DNA of 64,000 nucleotides from Streptococcus sp. Marseille-Q5986 (GTDB taxonomy: Bacteria; Bacillota; Bacilli; Lactobacillales; Streptococcaceae). The stretch lies in contig NZ_CAMPPY010000001.1 of the NCBI RefSeq assembly GCF_946902915.1, forward strand, positions 1 to 64,000, read 5' to 3'. Positions 20,561-28,424 of the stretch are shown here, in pieces. Position 1 is the stretch's first letter. Each line of letters opens with the position of its first letter. The notes under the pieces are model-generated. The model made no database searches and was not told the origin of the DNA. It was given only the letters and a program-made list of their open reading frames with translations. Position numbers and translations under genes: made by a program.

Positions 20561-20620
20561 AAGTAAAAAAGAAATAAGACAGTAGCTATAAAAAATATTT
20601 TCAAAAATATCAGAAAACAC

Positions 20621-20649
20621 TTGCAAACGTTTTCTCCTTGTGATATACT
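20621..20649 (+). promoter_or_regulatory. Promoter of the dextrin locus with an overlapping cre/MalR-type operator
   Basis: -35 TTGCAA (20621-20626) and -10 TATACT (20644-20649) are 17 bases apart. TTGCAAACGTTTTCT (20621-20635) fits the cre consensus WTGNAANCGNWNNCW at every fixed position, and a second, inverted half-like element AAAATGTTTGCG lies at 20665-20676. Repression by CcpA is likely; a LacI-family MalR could also use these sites, since MalR operators contain similar CGCAAAC motifs. No regulator gene is present in this locus. Confidence 0.75.
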
Positions 20650-20719
20650 ATTGTCATCTAAAGAAAATGTTTGCGCTACCGCTCAAGCATTTCTAATAAT
20701 AATAGGAGGTCCAATTATT

Positions 20720-21967
20720 ATGAATTGGAAAAAATTAGCTGTCGGCACTCTATCTCTTGCTTCTGTAGCAACTCTTGCTGCATGTGGTAGTTCTTCTAAT
20801 AAAAAAGCTGAGTCAGATTCTAAGACTCTGACAGTTTCTGTTGACAAAGGATACGTTGAGTACATCAAGAGTATCAAAGAAAAATTTGAAAAAGACAATG
20901 GTGTAACCATCAACGTAAAAGAAGAAGGTATGATTGATACTCTAGACAAATTGTCTACTGATGGACCAACTGGTGCAGCTCCGGATGTCTTTATTGCTCC
21001 TTACGACCGCGTTGGGGGACTTGGTAAAGATGGACAAATTGCTGAAGTATCACTCGGCAACAAAGAACAGTTTGATAAAACAACTCAAAATTTGGTAACT
21101 TTAGGCGGTAAAGTATACGGAGCTCCTGCTGTTATTGAGACGCTTGTTCTCTACTATAACAAGGACTTGATTTCTGCAGCGCCCAAAACATTTTCTGAGT
21201 TAGAAACTCTTCAAAAAGATTCAAAATATGCATTTGCAGGTGAAGACGGTAAAGCAACTGGTTTCCTTGCAAAGTGGACTGACTTCTACTTTGCATACGG
21301 ATTGCTAGCCGGTTATGATGGATATGTCTTTGGTAAAGATGGTACAGATCCTAAAGATGTCGGTCTTGGCAACGATGGTGCTATCAAAGGACTTGAATAC
21401 GCTAAAACTTGGTATGATGTGTGGCCTCAAGGTATGCAAGATCCTACCAAGGCAGGGGATTTTATTACTGAACAATTTACAAAAGGCAAAACAGCTGCTA
21501 TTATTGACGGACCTTGGGCAGCTGCTTCATTGAAAGAAGCAGGGGTCAATTATGGTGTAGCAACTATTCCAACACTTCCAAACAACGGTAAATACAAAGC
21601 CTTCGGTGGTGGTAAAGCTTGGGTTGTTTCAAACTACAGCAAAAACATGGAAGTTGCTCAAAAATTCCTTGATTACGTAACAAACAAAGACAATCAAAAA
21701 GCCTTCTACGACAATACTCAAGAAATTCCAGCAAACACACTTGCTCGCACTTATGCTTCAGAAAAAGGAAATGAGTTGACTTCAGCTGTTATCGCACAAT
21801 TTGCTGATGCTCAGCCAATGCCAAACATTCCTGAAATGGCGGAAGTTTGGAACCCTGCAGCTACAATGTTCTTTGATGTAGCTTCAGGTCAGAAAGCTGC
21901 TAAAGACGCTGCTAAGGAAGCAATAAAGGCTATTAAAGAAACGATTGAACAAAAATACGCCGAATAA
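20720..21967 (+). CDS. Maltodextrin/cyclodextrin-binding lipoprotein (MalX-like)
   Basis: This 415-residue protein is a substrate-binding lipoprotein of a carbohydrate ABC transporter. The lipobox is TLAAC (Cys near 23), followed by a Ser/Lys linker and a family 1 solute-binding fold with PDVFIAPYDRVG, GAPAVIETLVLYYN and AAIIDGPWAA, all strongly similar to pneumococcal MalX. I start at 20720 because AGGAGGT lies nine bases upstream and the signal peptide begins there; the open frame upstream overlaps the promoter. It is the first gene of the dextrin locus and, by context, should deliver dextrins or cyclodextrins to the permeases downstream. Confidence 0.92.
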   Translation: MNWKKLAVGTLSLASVATLAACGSSSNKKAESDSKTLTVSVDKGYVEYIKSIKEKFEKDNGVTINVKEEGMIDTLDKLSTDGPTGAAPDVFIAPYDRVGGLGKDGQIAEVSLGNKEQFDKTTQNLVTLGGKVYGAPAVIETLVLYYNKDLISAAPKTFSELETLQKDSKYAFAGEDGKATGFLAKWTDFYFAYGLLAGYDGYVFGKDGTDPKDVGLGNDGAIKGLEYAKTWYDVWPQGMQDPTKAGDFITEQFTKGKTAAIIDGPWAAASLKEAGVNYGVATIPTLPNNGKYKAFGGGKAWVVSNYSKNMEVAQKFLDYVTNKDNQKAFYDNTQEIPANTLARTYASEKGNELTSAVIAQFADAQPMPNIPEMAEVWNPAATMFFDVASGQKAAKDAAKEAIKAIKETIEQKYAE

Positions 21968-22011
21968 GTTCGTAAAGACATCGCACTAGTCAAGTGTTCT
22001 GTATTACCAAC

Positions 22012-22048
22012 AAAAAGCTGATTCAGATATATTTTTGTTCAGCTTTTT
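22012..22048 (+). terminator. Intercistronic terminator after the binding-protein gene
   Basis: AAAAAGCTGA pairs with TCAGCTTTTT across a 17-base loop. Partial termination here would give more binding protein than enzymes and permeases, a usual pattern in such operons. Confidence 0.7.
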
Positions 22049-22111
22049 CTCTTTGCTAAACTACCTTAGTTAGGAGAGAAAAGATTGAACAGTTCCAAAA
22101 GAAAGGCTACT

Positions 22112-23815
22112 ATGAACAAAGCAGGATTTTTGCATATTCCAGACTCTAGATATTGTTTTGCCACTTCCGACAACGAAGTAGTCATTCGTTTACGAGTCGC
22201 TAAAGAAGACAAACATCTTCGTTTTTCTCTCGTTTATGGCAACAAATACCGTTACCATCTTGAACAAGAAGAAAAAAAACTGACACTCAAATACATAGAT
22301 CATCTCCATGCCTATTATGAAGTAAAATTAACCTTGAGAGATTTGCGTTTAGCTTATGTGTTTAAGTTTGAAGAGGATGGAAAAATCTACTATTTTAGCG
22401 AAAGTGGGATCACAGAGACCTATGACTTTGATTATGCCTTTTATGACTTTTTCCAAATGCCTTACATCAATCCAGTCGATGTCCATCGGGTAGTTGATTG
22501 GGCAGATGGTGCCGTCTTTTATCAAATCTTTGTTGACCGCTTTTTCCGTGGCGATATGGAGAAAGACGATACATACATCAACATGGCCTGGACAGCTAAA
22601 CCATTGCCAACTAGTTTGGCTGGGGGGGATTTGGAAGGGATTCGCCAAAAATTATCTTACCTCAAAGAATTAGGGGTTAATACAATTTATTTGACTCCTA
22701 TCTTCCAATCCAACAGTAATCATAAATATGATATCAACGATTACTATAGTGTAGACAAACATTTTGGTAGCAAATTCAGTTTGAGACAACTGATTGACGA
22801 CTTGCATGCCCTAGATATGAAAATTGTTTTAGATGCTGTCTTCAACCATAGTAGTGACTTACTCCCAGAGTTTCAGGACGTCCTTTCTAAAGGGAGGAAA
22901 TCTGTCTATTTTGATTGGTTCATGATTCACGGCGACCACATAGATCAAGAGAATCTCAATTATGAAACCTTTGGAGCAGTGGCACAAATGCCTAAATTGA
23001 ACACTTCTAACCCTGAAGTCCAAGATTACCTACTAGCAATCACGCGCTATTGGACACAAGAATTCCAATTAGATGGATGGCGCCTAGATGTATCGGATGA
23101 AGTCTCACACGATTTTTGGAAACAATTTAGAAAAACTGTCAAAGCAATTAATCCAAATCTCATTATTATTGGTGAAAACTGGCATGATGCGTACCCGTAT
23201 CTACAAGGTGACCAATATGATAGCATTATGAATTATGCATTCACCAAAGCTTGCCTAGATTATTTTGCAAACAACAACTTATCCTCTCAAGGTATGGCGG
23301 AACGACTAAATCACATTCTCATGAGAAATACTGATGCGGTCAATCGTATGAATCTCAATCTCTTAGATTCACATGATACACACCGCTTCTTCACACAAGT
23401 TAACAAATCAGTTGATAAACTGTTGGCTGCTACCGCTCTTCTTTTTACTTTTACAGGCATCCCCTGCCTCTATTACGGTACTGAATTAGGAATGGAAGGG
23501 GGCTATGACCCTGACTGCCGTAGAGGTTTTAATTGGGATGAAACCAGTTGGAACCGCGAACTGTTATCAAAAATGAAGCAGATTATCACCTTAAAACAAA
23601 ATAGCCTTATCCAAATTGGAGACATAGCAATCACTGCTAACAGCAATCTCCTGTCGCTAAAACGGACTTCTAAGGAGCACACCTTAGAACTACTCATAAA
23701 CAATGGAGAGGAAGAGGAGGTCGGGGTATATGCAGAAAATGTGATTGTAGAAAATGGTTTCTCTAATAATAAATTAAAGAAAAATGGTTTCTTAATACAC
23801 TCATCATCTCTCTAG
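22112..23815 (+). CDS. Neopullulanase/cyclomaltodextrinase-type glycoside hydrolase (GH13)
   Basis: The protein has no signal peptide and should hydrolyse imported dextrins or cyclodextrins in the cytoplasm. An N-terminal beta domain (about 1-120) starting MNKAGFLHIPDSRY is typical of the neopullulanase group. The catalytic barrel carries VFYQIFVDRF, DAVFNHS, GWRLDVSDE (nucleophile Asp), IGENWHDA (acid/base Glu) and LLDSHDTHR (third Asp). I chose the ATG at 22112 because it matches where family members begin. A TTG at 22085, eight bases after a good GGAG site, would add nine residues and cannot be excluded. It corresponds in place to amyB of the group A streptococcal dextrin locus. Confidence 0.88.
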   Translation: MNKAGFLHIPDSRYCFATSDNEVVIRLRVAKEDKHLRFSLVYGNKYRYHLEQEEKKLTLKYIDHLHAYYEVKLTLRDLRLAYVFKFEEDGKIYYFSESGITETYDFDYAFYDFFQMPYINPVDVHRVVDWADGAVFYQIFVDRFFRGDMEKDDTYINMAWTAKPLPTSLAGGDLEGIRQKLSYLKELGVNTIYLTPIFQSNSNHKYDINDYYSVDKHFGSKFSLRQLIDDLHALDMKIVLDAVFNHSSDLLPEFQDVLSKGRKSVYFDWFMIHGDHIDQENLNYETFGAVAQMPKLNTSNPEVQDYLLAITRYWTQEFQLDGWRLDVSDEVSHDFWKQFRKTVKAINPNLIIIGENWHDAYPYLQGDQYDSIMNYAFTKACLDYFANNNLSSQGMAERLNHILMRNTDAVNRMNLNLLDSHDTHRFFTQVNKSVDKLLAATALLFTFTGIPCLYYGTELGMEGGYDPDCRRGFNWDETSWNRELLSKMKQIITLKQNSLIQIGDIAITANSNLLSLKRTSKEHTLELLINNGEEEEVGVYAENVIVENGFSNNKLKKNGFLIHSSSL

Positions 23816-23827
23816 GAGAAAACAACT

Positions 23828-25945
23828 ATAAAAAAAAATAAGAGATACATCATTTCTGCTCTAGCAACTATTGCACTATCCACTCTCTTTAGTACTGTAC
23901 AAGCTGATGAAGCAAATGCCGTCACAAATAAAGCAGACTTCTCAACTGATTCTATCTACCAAATTGTCACAGACCGATTTGCTGATGGCGATACTAGTAA
24001 CAATGCACAAGGAGAGTTATTCGATAAGGCTGACCCTCGTAAATATCACGGAGGCGACTGGCAGGGAATTATCTCAAAAATTAAAGATGGCTATTTGACC
24101 AAAATGGGAATTTCAGCAATCTGGATTTCTTCACCTGTAGAAAATATTGAAGTTATTGACCCATCTTCAAAAAGTGCTGCTTATCATGGTTATTGGGCTA
24201 AAGATTTTTTTCGTACAAACCAACACTTTGGTAGCATGGAAGATTTCAAAGAATTAGTGACCGTAGCACATCAAAATGGTATCAAAATTGTCATCGATTT
24301 TGCACCTAACCACACATCAACTGCTGAATATCAAGGGTTCACATTTCCAGAAGATGGAGCTCTTTACCGAGATGGACAATTAATTGGGAAATTTAGTAGC
24401 GACAGCGAAAATATCTTCAATCATGAATCTTGGTCAGACAAACCTGATTTAGAGAATGGCATTTATCACAGCCTCTATGGTCTCGCAGACTTGAATAATC
24501 TCAATCCAACAGTTGATAACTATATGAAGGATGCTATTCAATTGTGGTTAGACATGGGAGTAGATGGTATTCGAGTAGATGCTGTTAAACATATGTCTCT
24601 TGGTTGGCAGAAAAACTGGTTGAGTAGCATCTATGAAAAGCATAATGTGTTTGCTTTTGGTGAATGGTTTGTCGGAGGAACTGACAATGATCCAGCAATG
24701 TCACAGTTTGCTAATACTAGTGGTATGAGTCTACTTGACTTCCGATTTGCAAATGCCGTTCGAAATCTGTATACTAATCTTTCAGCCTCAATGACAGATT
24801 TCTACAACGTCTTAAAAGTAACAGAGAACGATTACGAAGAAGTCAGTGACCAAGTTACCTTCATTGATAATCACGATATGAAGCGTTTTTCAACTATAGT
24901 TAACGGGAATCAAACAGCTGTACATCAGGCTTATGCTCTCTTGCTGACCTCAAGAGGCGTTCCAAATCTTTACTACGGTAGTGAGCAGTACGCACAAGGT
25001 GAGGATGACCCAGCTAATCGCGGAGACATGACTAGCTTTGATCAAAATTCGGTAGCTTACCAAGTCATCAGCAAGTTAGCACCACTCCGCAAGAGCAATC
25101 AAGGTCTGGCTTACGGAAATACGCAAGAACGTTGGATTAACCAAGATGTCCTTGTTTTCGAGAGAAAATTCGGTGACCATGTTGCGTTGGTTGCTGTTAA
25201 TAAAAACCAATCTCGTTCTTACCAAATTACAGGCGCACATACGGATTTACCAGATGGAAAATACTCAGATAAATTGGATGGCATCCTAGGCGGTTCCGAA
25301 TTAGTCGTTTCTTCATCTGGAACTGTTCAAGACTTTGAATTATCTCCTGGTGAAGTTGCTGTCTGGACCTTTGAGGGTAAAGGGCAAGAATTAAACTTAG
25401 CCGATGTAGACACCTCAATGGGCTTACCTGGCAACACAATCGTATTAACAGGACAAGGTTTTGGTACACAAGCTGGAACTGTATCCTTCAACGATACGAA
25501 CGCACAAGTGCTTGAGTGGAACAATACTTTAATCAAAGTGAAAGTTCCTCAACTAACCGCCGGTTCTTATGCTATTTCAGCAACAATTAGTGAAGGTACA
25601 CACAGCAACGCTTTCGCAAACTTTGAAGTGTTGTCTGGCAAACAAGTTCCTGTACGTTTGAAAATCAATAACTTATCAACATCATGGGGAGAACAGCTAT
25701 ATCTAGTCGGAAATGTTCCTGAATTAGGTGGTGGGGATGTCAATAAAGCAATTGGGCCTCTCTTTAACCAAACACAATCAATAGCGAGTTACCCTAACTG
25801 GTTCTACGATGTTAGCCTTCCAAGCAACACAGACATTCAATATCAATTTGTCAAGAAAGATAGCAATGGCAATGTTGCATGGAAAAGCGATTACAACAGC
25901 TTTAAAACAGAAGATAAGGCTACCACCGTTACATTAAAAGAATAA
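23828..25945 (+). CDS. cgt: Secreted cyclodextrin glucanotransferase (GH13) with an apparent ATA start codon
   Basis: The enzyme cyclises or transfers alpha-1,4-glucans from starch outside the cell. Reading from an ATA at 23828 gives 705 residues with a signal peptide (1-26, cut after VQA), a GH13 barrel with D251, E279 and D350, an aligned domain C, an IPT/TIG domain (about 520-603) and a starch-binding CBM20 (about 607-705). Those catalytic positions are all offset by 22 from the mature Bacillus CGTase numbering (229, 257, 328), so the frame is complete. The sequence VDAVKHM and APLRKSNQGLAYG are typical of CGTases rather than simple amylases. GGAG lies about nine bases before the ATA. No ATG or GTG, and no TTG before 24095, occurs in frame; a start at TTG 24095 would remove the signal peptide and about 63 residues of the barrel. 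Confidence 0.85.
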   Translation: MKKNKRYIISALATIALSTLFSTVQADEANAVTNKADFSTDSIYQIVTDRFADGDTSNNAQGELFDKADPRKYHGGDWQGIISKIKDGYLTKMGISAIWISSPVENIEVIDPSSKSAAYHGYWAKDFFRTNQHFGSMEDFKELVTVAHQNGIKIVIDFAPNHTSTAEYQGFTFPEDGALYRDGQLIGKFSSDSENIFNHESWSDKPDLENGIYHSLYGLADLNNLNPTVDNYMKDAIQLWLDMGVDGIRVDAVKHMSLGWQKNWLSSIYEKHNVFAFGEWFVGGTDNDPAMSQFANTSGMSLLDFRFANAVRNLYTNLSASMTDFYNVLKVTENDYEEVSDQVTFIDNHDMKRFSTIVNGNQTAVHQAYALLLTSRGVPNLYYGSEQYAQGEDDPANRGDMTSFDQNSVAYQVISKLAPLRKSNQGLAYGNTQERWINQDVLVFERKFGDHVALVAVNKNQSRSYQITGAHTDLPDGKYSDKLDGILGGSELVVSSSGTVQDFELSPGEVAVWTFEGKGQELNLADVDTSMGLPGNTIVLTGQGFGTQAGTVSFNDTNAQVLEWNNTLIKVKVPQLTAGSYAISATISEGTHSNAFANFEVLSGKQVPVRLKINNLSTSWGEQLYLVGNVPELGGGDVNKAIGPLFNQTQSIASYPNWFYDVSLPSNTDIQYQFVKKDSNGNVAWKSDYNSFKTEDKATTVTLKE

Positions 25946-25971
25946 ATACGTAGTTTCAGAAAGGAGACGCG

Positions 25972-27270
25972 ATGGAACAAAAACAACATAACCCTCGGGT
26001 AGCCATGTGGCTTTCCCTCATTCTAGGACTGGGGCAATTCTATAACAAACAGAAGGCGAAGGGAGCTTTCCTCCTTACTGTCTTCTTTCTTGAATTAATT
26101 GAAATAGTTACCTTTGGTATCCCTGCTATCCAAGGATTAATCACTCTCGGGGATACACCTGTCATTGATCACTCCCTATTCCTATTAATCAAGGGTGCAA
26201 TGCAGCTGATTCTCTTCCTTGTAATGATTATCGTCCATATTATTTGTATGAGGGATGCAAAAAAGACCGCTGAAATGCTCAATCAAGGAATGAAAGTTCC
26301 TATGACAGCCAAGGAAACTCTGCAAACAATTTACGAGAACAGTTTCCCTTATTTATTGACAATTCCTGCTTACTTAGCCATGACATTTGCTATTGTCTTT
26401 CCTGTATTGGTTACAGTCTTTATCGCTTTTACAAACTACGACTTTAGACATATCCCTCCACAAAAATTACTGGATTGGGTTGGCTTCGAAAATTTTGTGA
26501 ATATGGTCGGGCTAAGCACCTTCCGTAGTGCCTTCTCGTCTGTTTTATCTTGGACATTTATTTGGACGTTGGCAGCTTCTACCTTACAAATTGTATTAGG
26601 TGTATTTACTGCTATCATTGCAAATCAGCCATTCATCAAGTTCAAACGTATCTTCGGGGTTATTTTCCTCCTACCTTGGGCTGTGCCTGCCTTTATTTCT
26701 ATTATGAGTTTTGGAAACTTTTTCAATGACTCTATTGGTGCAATGAATGTGCAAGTTTTACCTTTCATTGAGAAAATATTACCATTCCTTGACTTTGGGA
26801 TTGTTCCTTGGAAAACAGATCCTACTTGGACAAAAATAGCTGTTGTAATGGTGCAGGGGTGGCTTGGTTTCCCTTATATCTATATTTTGGTATCTGGTAT
26901 ACTACAATCAATTCCATCTGATTTATATGAAGCAGCTATTATTGATGGTGCTAGCGCTTGGCAAAAATTCTGGAAAATTACACTTCCAATGATTTTAGTT
27001 GTAGCCGCTCCAACCTTTATTTCACAATATACTTTCAACTTTAACAACTTCTCTATCATCTACCTCTTTAATAACGGTGGACCTGGTAGCGTTGGTGGCG
27101 GTGCAGGTTCTACAGATATTTTGATTTCTTGGATTTACAAGTTGACTACTCAGACTTCACCTCAATTTTCAATGGCGTCTGCTGTCACCTTGATTATTTC
27201 ACTGATTGTCATCTCTGTATCCCTCATCACCTTTAAAAAATTCAATGCATTTGATATGGAGGACCGATAA
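25972..27270 (+). CDS. Dextrin ABC transporter permease, MalF/MalC type
   Basis: This 432-residue integral membrane protein has about eight hydrophobic segments and the permease EAA loop EAAIIDGASAWQKFWKITLP, which docks the ATPase. The unusual N-terminal extension with a TM2-like GLGQFYNKQKAKGAFL segment is shared with streptococcal MalF/MalC proteins. An AAAGGAG site precedes the ATG. It overlaps no neighbour and is followed directly by the partner permease with no gap. No ATPase gene is present; in related streptococci the shared ATPase MsmK/MalK serves such systems. Confidence 0.9.
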   Translation: MEQKQHNPRVAMWLSLILGLGQFYNKQKAKGAFLLTVFFLELIEIVTFGIPAIQGLITLGDTPVIDHSLFLLIKGAMQLILFLVMIIVHIICMRDAKKTAEMLNQGMKVPMTAKETLQTIYENSFPYLLTIPAYLAMTFAIVFPVLVTVFIAFTNYDFRHIPPQKLLDWVGFENFVNMVGLSTFRSAFSSVLSWTFIWTLAASTLQIVLGVFTAIIANQPFIKFKRIFGVIFLLPWAVPAFISIMSFGNFFNDSIGAMNVQVLPFIEKILPFLDFGIVPWKTDPTWTKIAVVMVQGWLGFPYIYILVSGILQSIPSDLYEAAIIDGASAWQKFWKITLPMILVVAAPTFISQYTFNFNNFSIIYLFNNGGPGSVGGGAGSTDILISWIYKLTTQTSPQFSMASAVTLIISLIVISVSLITFKKFNAFDMEDR

Positions 27271-28128
27271 ATGACAGGAAAGTTTCAAAAAAGTTCCCTA
27301 AAGCGTAATCGATTTCTCACTCAATTCTTTACCTACGCTTATCTTGTTCTACTGGCAATTATTATCCTGTTTCCAATTTTAGTAACTGTTAGTTCAGCCT
27401 TTCGACCAAGTAATATCACTTCCTTCACTTTCACTCTGGATGGTGACTGGACGGTAGAGAATTTCCGAAGACTGTTTACAGAAACTCTATATGGTCGTTG
27501 GTATATGAACACTTTGATTGTTGCCTTCTTCACGATGCTCATTCAAGTAACTGTTATTACATTAACAGGTTATGCCTACAGTAGATATAACTTTGTCGGC
27601 CGTAAGAAAAGTTTGCTGTTCTTCTTGGTTATTCAAATGGTTCCTACCATGGCTGCTTTGACTGCTTACTTCGTTATGGCATGGCTCTTCAATGCCCTTA
27701 ATCATTACTGGTTCCTAATTCTGATTTACGTAGGCGGTGGTATTCCGATGAATGCTTGGCTCATGAAAGGGTATTTTGACACTGTCCCTTATGATCTTGA
27801 TGAATCTGCCAAACTGGACGGAGCTGGGCATTTCAAGACCTTCTACCAAATCGTCCTCCCACTGGTAAAACCTATGATTGCCGTACAGGCCTTATGGGCA
27901 TTTATGGGACCATTTGGTGATTTCATACTGGCAAAATTCTTACTTCGTTCACAAGAAAATTACACAGTAGCCGTCGGGCTTCAAACGTTTATTATTGATG
28001 CTAAAAATCAAAAAATAACTCTCTTTGCAGCTGGAGCTATCCTAATTGCTGTCCCTATTTCCATCCTATTCTTCTTCCTACAAAAGAACTTTGTATCTGG
28101 ATTAACCAAGGGTGGTACAAAAGGGTAG
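27271..28128 (+). CDS. Dextrin ABC transporter permease, MalG/MalD type
   Basis: The 285-residue inner-membrane protein has six predicted helices and the EAA-loop motif [22 protein letters not shown], given here by its core residues. It starts immediately after the MalF-type stop codon, so translation is probably coupled. Together with the MalF-type partner it forms the membrane channel for the MalX-like binding protein. It is the last gene of the dextrin locus, and about 180 bases of apparently decayed sequence plus a terminator follow. Confidence 0.9.
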
Positions 28129-28335
28129 TTGAAAAGTGCTACAGTATATTTTATAGTAGTGTAGAAGTCAACGCTGACTATACAGAAGATGAAGAGACTG
28201 AGACAAAAGTCTAACCTCAAATATAAAAAGCGAACAAAACGAGTTATCTGACATTCAGAATTCGGCTCTTTGTAAACTGTAGTGGGTTGAAGTCAGCTAA
28301 GATCGAGAAAGGACGAATTTCGTCCTTTCTTTTTT
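28129..28335 (+). repeat. Decayed intergenic repeat with terminator hairpin
   Basis: This stretch has no gene. It contains GGCTCTTTGT followed by AAACTGTAGTGGG (28264-28286), which resembles the ISL3-family end I recall from pneumococcal genomes, and it echoes the motif at 20532. It ends in a terminator: AGAAAGGACGAA and TTCGTCCTTTCT (28306-28330) followed by a T run. It is best read as remnants of an insertion-sequence end carrying a terminator. Confidence 0.5.
28306..28335 (+). terminator. Terminator closing the dextrin locus
   Basis: A 12-base stem built on GAAAGGACGAA (28307-28317) and TTCGTCCTTTC (28319-28329) is followed by six T residues. Confidence 0.8.
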
Positions 28336-28424
28336 GAGTGCCATTCCAATCTTTTTTGCTTAGATTTTTGCTATAATATTACTTATTCACAATTTATTTT
28401 GATTATGAAAAAGTTTGGTGATTA

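Follow-up and report, generated by a model that had tools for sequence, protein, structure and literature searches.

Translation starts at AUA have been described in several bacteria. Retapamulin profiling of Staphylococcus aureus revealed that infC, ccpN and citZ start at AUA; the excerpted text of that report puts ccpN and citZ initiation at about 10% of that from AUG in poor medium, with ccpN reaching up to 30% in rich medium, and describes the AUA of citZ as conserved among NCTC 8325 lineage strains (PMC13009471). An ATG to ATA change in Escherichia coli rpoS lowered the protein up to 5-fold, according to an extract of the account. PMC12864459, likewise as excerpted, quotes second-hand a figure of Hecht et al. 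2017 by which ATA efficiency is only up to 1%. Partial accounts also describe group A Streptococcus ralp3, which has ATA in emm4 and ATG in emm1 and whose emm4 allele the authors suspect to yield little protein (PMC11238559), and a Bdellovibrio bd0108 ATG-to-ATA mutant that equalled the deletion in sRNA level but, unlike the deletion, responded to complementation (PMC3818213).

We examined a gene for a cyclodextrin glucanotransferase (CGTase) in Streptococcus sp. Marseille-Q5986, a mouth-type Streptococcus, within a window of 64,000 nucleotides (NZ_CAMPPY010000001.1, positions 1 to 64,000). This genome (G000) was compared with a genus set of 284 genomes, and named CGTase copies were taken from a GTDB scan; the literature search returned no paper containing both “cyclodextrin glucanotransferase” and “Streptococcus mitis”. 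The reading we prefer, at a probability of roughly 0.6, is that the gene is a hypomorphic CGTase allele, which would be weakly translated from AUA.

A CGTase gene within a maltodextrin uptake cassette

The features of the locus are collected in Table 1. No stop or frameshift, the frame-breaking lesion by which a pseudogene would be recognized, was found across the 705 codons. The protein matched Pfam models, each above its cut-off, for GH13 (residues 45-407), alpha-amylase_C (436-515), TIG (530-594) and CBM20 (606-691), and this order of GH13 catalytic domain, C domain, TIG/IPT and CBM20 is that of a CGTase. The catalytic acids D251, E279 and D350 (counted from the ATA) lie in conserved GH13 motifs and align with those of a solved CGTase; Y217, at what we take to be the central cyclisation position, stands opposite F in 1a47, so that an aromatic residue is present there. 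Among 60 sequences listed in a PDB search the best 35 were CGTases (top 1a47, E 6e-225), and none of the best 25 NCBIfam rows exceeded its cut-off. By domains and residues, the gene is a complete one for a predicted secreted cyclodextrin glucanotransferase belonging to a maltodextrin uptake cassette, with cyclodextrin formation as the predicted activity. The preliminary description had pointed out that, with the ATA as residue 1, each catalytic acid lies 22 above its counterpart in mature Bacillus CGTase (229, 257 and 328). The arithmetic holds; it has no bearing on the start, for loop gaps shift the offset against 1a47 from 26 at the N-terminus to 21 by the time the first catalytic acid is reached, and the match of +22 is thus no evidence for an ATA start.

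Table 1. Features at the CGTase locus (coordinates of the window)
Feature	Position	Strand	Remarks
Cassette malX-amyB-CGTase-malF-malG, horizontally exchanged	20576..28150	+	99.8% identical to S. mitis 1001175st1_H6
Candidate MalR operator TGCAAACGTTTTCT, upstream of malX	20622..20635	+	in promoter-like site 20621-20649
malX-like sugar ABC transporter binding protein gene	20723..21967	+	
amyB-like GH13 gene, neopullulanase/cyclomaltodextrinase type	22085..23815	+	below NCBIfam cut-offs
Shine-Dalgarno core GGAG	23815..23818	+	nine bases 5' of ATA; first G common to the upstream TAG stop
ATA codon at the site of the ancestral CGTase start	23828..23830	+	derived base 23830; ATG at offset 0 in L003/L015 and L004/L017
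Predicted cyclodextrin glucanotransferase gene, intact	23828..25945	+	705 codons + stop; signal-peptide-like N-terminus by eye
First canonical in-frame start, TTG	24095..24097	+	codon 90, within GH13 domain
ABC permease gene, malF/malC-like	25972..27270	+	own Shine-Dalgarno sequence
ABC permease gene, malG/malD-like	27271..28128	+	

The putative operator ahead of malX matches the pneumococcal malX operator at 12 of 14 bases (motif as given in an excerpt of PMC4451989); promoter-like sites such as the one that holds it were no commoner in the promoter scan than in shuffled sequence. Between 20576 and 28000, some 7.4 kb, the window and S. mitis 1001175st1_H6 show 13 differences. The right flank beyond about 28250 is approximately 10% divergent from the same strain, and nothing in the window matches the first 266 bases of the S. 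mitis contig. In a complete relative (G237), about 1.17 Mb of contig separates the matches to metK, the left neighbour, from those to the right neighbour, and the matches to the cassette transporter genes are about 72% identical (1.60 of 1.97 Mb examined). The near-identical cassette, the divergent flank and the layout of the relative together indicate a recent horizontal exchange of the cassette, which makes the start mutation recent too. Two stretches of about 80 bases within 28191-28340, at the right cassette end, recur several times in the complete relative; we assume that they resemble dispersed BOX- or RUP-type repeats.

Against the S. mitis gene the CGTase gene differs at three nonsynonymous codons (one of them the start) and one synonymous codon, four in all and too few for a selection test. 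A hand calculation from 15 start-codon bases in the approximately 7.4 kb gives about 0.03 hits on a start codon expected without selection, so a derived start change by chance is mildly surprising, not extraordinary.

The ATA codon and its ancestral state

The GH13 frame opens after a TAG at 23813-23815, which is the stop of the amyB-like gene; that gene lies in the CGTase frame, and its stop ends 12 bases before the ATA. In the codon scan from 23816 to 24098 the first ATG, GTG or TTG was the TTG at 24095. The preliminary description had stated both this and the ATA nine bases after GGAG, and the sequence bears it out; its further point, that a start at the TTG would delete the signal peptide and part of the barrel, also stands, given that codon 90 falls inside the GH13 domain. 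Such a start would cost the protein its signal peptide and 45 residues at the beginning of the matched GH13 domain, and we do not consider the TTG plausible as the start of an active enzyme. Near-cognate codons in the same interval are ATA 23828, ATC 23849, ATT 23852 and ATT 23870, with five others at 23954 or later, and only that at 23828 has a fitting Shine-Dalgarno spacing; ATC 23849, ATT 23852 and ATT 23870 were rejected as being at least 30 bases from GGAG. Read-through of the amyB TAG was also rejected; it would place the signal peptide in the interior of a longer protein, and in the relatives with ATG the CGTase gene is an ordinary separate one. Bacterial TadA edits at TACG, a site absent at this ATA, and A-to-I editing of the AUA was set aside. 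A scan of viral contigs with the CGTase start region gave 0 matches.

CGTase homologues at E ≤ 1e-100 were present in 13 of the 284 genomes, this one included. The nearest comes from S. mitis 1001175st1_H6 (protein identity 99.6%) and has ATG exactly at the ATA codon, with Shine-Dalgarno sequence and spacing otherwise identical; that of S. gallinaceus 3635A (96% identical) has ATG there as well. Two genus-set stretches are contained in these same records: S. mitis record L015 includes an exact copy of L003 of G096, and L004 of G043 lies within the S. gallinaceus record L017. In each of the other 12 genus copies a canonical start lies close to where one would be expected; in one (L005, G208) it is three codons later and in another (L006) several candidates occur. 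Since both nearest relatives carry ATG at the same codon, the comparison which the preliminary description had proposed for choosing between ATG and ATA as the ancestral state shows the ATA to be the derived form, by a single G-to-A change at 23830 from an ancestral ATG. The locus therefore has what is expected of an ATG-to-ATA start allele: an ancestral ATG, no other usable full-length start and a normal Shine-Dalgarno distance.

A sequencing or assembly error, with G as the true base at 23830, would produce the same picture. The site adjoins a run of eight A, and the genome is represented by a single assembly of 17 contigs. The 13 differences in about 7.4 kb are, on the other hand, far denser than usual consensus error rates would give. 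We consider such an error rather unlikely, and the genome-wide comparison below bears on it further.

Other candidate ATA starts in the same genome

Starts were compared genome-wide using 1.23 Mb of 2.13 Mb of this genome and 1.60 of 1.97 Mb of the complete relative G237. Matches were set aside if they had less than 75% identity or 70% coverage, extended past the end of a stretch or duplicated a frame already encountered; frames differing by more than 40 codons in length (95 in this genome, 86 in the relative) were counted as broken and left unused; and rows were restricted to those with ATG as the reference start and an alignment beginning within the first three residues. Among 625 intact orthologues, 597 with an aligned start, five had ATG in the relative and ATA in this genome. 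In three of the five a canonical start follows after 1 or 3 codons, and another is apparently an over-extended open reading frame with the next start at +15. The other apparent lost starts were set aside by eye, where a canonical start was near or the reading frame was over-extended or spurious. One real further loss was left, an FAD oxidoreductase gene (C1:563219, minus strand; L155 near 3219) 97% identical to its counterpart in the relative. An in-frame TAA immediately precedes its ATA, the next canonical start comes 21 codons later, and the reading frame is intact. A pattern allowing both codons found ATG in 34 of 35 matched genomes (of 284) and ATA in this genome only. The protein scored above the cut-off of the NCBIfam FAD-containing oxidoreductase model; against the hypothiocyanous acid reductase model it reached 535 bits, the cut-off being 650.

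The reverse comparison gave 630 orthologues, 603 with an aligned start. It listed an ATG-to-ATA difference twice, and on inspection by eye each was taken for an over-extended or spurious reading frame. Derived ATA starts thus number 1 of 625 against 0 of 630, no significant excess. The second ATG-to-ATA difference could point to an artefact common to both sites, although its site, ATATTAAC, has no long homopolymer; in-frame stops within aligned genes, spurious reading frames included, were only slightly commoner in this genome (26/497) than in the reverse direction (18/513), which is no clear sign of a poor assembly.

The infC gene of this genome has ATA at C12:12131 (L095 1492) and reads GAGGTGAAAACC-ATA-GCAAAGCAAGAC, where ATA GCA AAG CAA GAC runs into the IF3 N-terminus. 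From the Shine-Dalgarno sequence, the protein N-terminus and conservation, infC probably starts at this ATA. Upstream of the ATA the frame stays open for another 31 codons and contains a GTG at -22, a TTG at -12 and a GTG at -3. The GTG at -3, three codons before the ATA and inside GAGGTG itself, weakens infC as a precedent for AUA. The start pattern was found, with up to 3 mismatches, in 188 of the 284 genomes, and among the matches listed the codon was ATA except for four with ATC, none having ATG; the search pattern itself contained ATA and so favoured ATA matches, and 96 genomes had no match.

We also considered the initiation machinery. A changed initiator tRNA was rejected as a cause, the copy found in this genome being identical to two copies of the complete relative over 74 bases. 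IF3 of this genome has F for L at residue 22 and R for Q at residue 74 (interdomain linker) compared with six genus sequences (L196-L200 and G237), and a pattern with the R codon CGA, which also fixes neighbouring bases, matched exactly in this genome alone of 284. Two solved IF3 sequences have Q and E, and L and S, at the two positions; since both positions vary, the IF3 differences are a weak lead. It is improbable, in our estimate, that this lineage tolerates AUA starts unusually well, for example through these IF3 residues, with CGTase, the hypothiocyanous-acid-reductase-like enzyme and infC forming an AUA set that follows the IF3 level. Least probable of the readings considered is a selected regulatory start at which low, IF3-sensitive CGTase synthesis is favoured, as has been suggested for S. 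aureus infC and ccpN. IF3 is said to modulate the decoding of such starts, and ccpN AUA initiation responds to the medium in the excerpted text of PMC13009471; the ATA here is one base in one lineage, with ATG in the nearest relatives and no conservation.

Weak translation, loss of the gene, and comparison with known systems

The preliminary description had left two options, inefficient initiation at ATA or a mutated ATG in a gene being silenced. The two are compatible, since weak reading is what would be expected of a start once it has mutated to ATA; the mutation is borne out, and no second lesion in the gene points to silencing. On the hypomorphic reading, after the single recent G-to-A change from ATG to ATA in this lineage GGAG would still recruit ribosomes, among them some that have just finished amyB 12 bases before the ATA. 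Initiation at AUA with fMet-tRNA would proceed by a third-position mismatch, perhaps at 1-20% of the former rate, and the same pre-protein would be made at a much lower level. The transporter and the intracellular enzyme should be little affected, because malF has its own Shine-Dalgarno sequence and a search for Rho, which could add polarity, gave no match above cut-off (best 39.9 bits vs 509), so that malF and malG would not have to be shut down through Rho if CGTase translation were lost.

Support for the hypomorphic allele comes from ATG in the two nearest genes, the intact frame, a Shine-Dalgarno sequence and spacing as in S. mitis, the probable infC precedent within the genome, and the published AUA starts. 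Against it stand the 1% figure (PMC12864459), ralp3 and the bd0108 mutant, all as excerpted, and the lesions of CGTase genes in the genus. These last occur in 3 of the 12 other genus copies. That of G011 has ATG and then, compared with L012, one extra A in a poly-A run, producing a frameshift (L013 1435-1480); that of G208 is frameshifted before CBM20, with malF broken too; and the homologue of G248 has an internal TAA, though at 41% identity in the genome search it is perhaps a different gene. The extra A in G011 could serve as a slippage switch, mark a lost gene or be an error in the base call. In Streptococcus sp. X13SY08 (L016 6790-6810, 7970-7980) the CGTase gene is frameshifted before CBM20, and malF is about 50 codons short and frameshifted.

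With such lesions elsewhere in the genus, silencing is a serious rival and a simple loss of CGTase here is plausible. By this account the allele would be in effect null, AUA being too weak to matter and the mutation being the first step of pseudogene decay; a secreted enzyme is perhaps a shared good that can be lost while uptake is kept. The little protein suspected from ralp3 with ATA in emm4 points the same way (PMC11238559, as excerpted). This CGTase gene shows no second lesion, however, the published AUA starts keep measurable expression in the excerpts cited above, and infC of this genome is probably ATA-started; malF is also broken in G208, so decay there went beyond the secreted enzyme. 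We regard an effective null as unlikely, though less so than a base error. From the published AUA cases and infC, a strong reduction of CGTase would be expected, and total silence seems less likely.

Gene callers that take only ATG, GTG or TTG would drop or truncate the CGTase gene, and the strain could be scored as having no secreted starch enzyme. The existence of a 99.6% identical partner gene with ATG makes this a clean natural case for measuring how AUA is read in streptococci. The conserved, probable ATA start of infC, together with the second derived ATA, makes start-codon loss countable across the genus, and two derived ATA starts in one genome merit a check of the reads.

The cassette has the gene set of S. 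pyogenes malX-amyB-amyA-malC-malD, in the same order by locus number, where amyA is the CGTase (PMC2843714, in excerpt). For the start codon, the sources quoted above, within the portions cited, offer three likenesses. S. aureus citZ is likewise a metabolic gene of a Gram-positive coccus with a lineage-confined AUA start, but its initiation was mapped and quantified with a reporter, whereas AUA use is inferred here (PMC13009471). E. coli rpoS likewise became a hypomorph by a single G-to-A change in the third start base; it differs in being a regulator of laboratory-culture origin whose protein was measured, in contrast to the predicted secreted enzyme here. Group A Streptococcus ralp3 belongs to the same genus and, like CGTase here, has ATA in one lineage and ATG in another (emm1), although it is a named regulator (PMC11238559). 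ATG-to-ATA start changes are thus already known elsewhere, and the CGTase gene is a tidy example of one.
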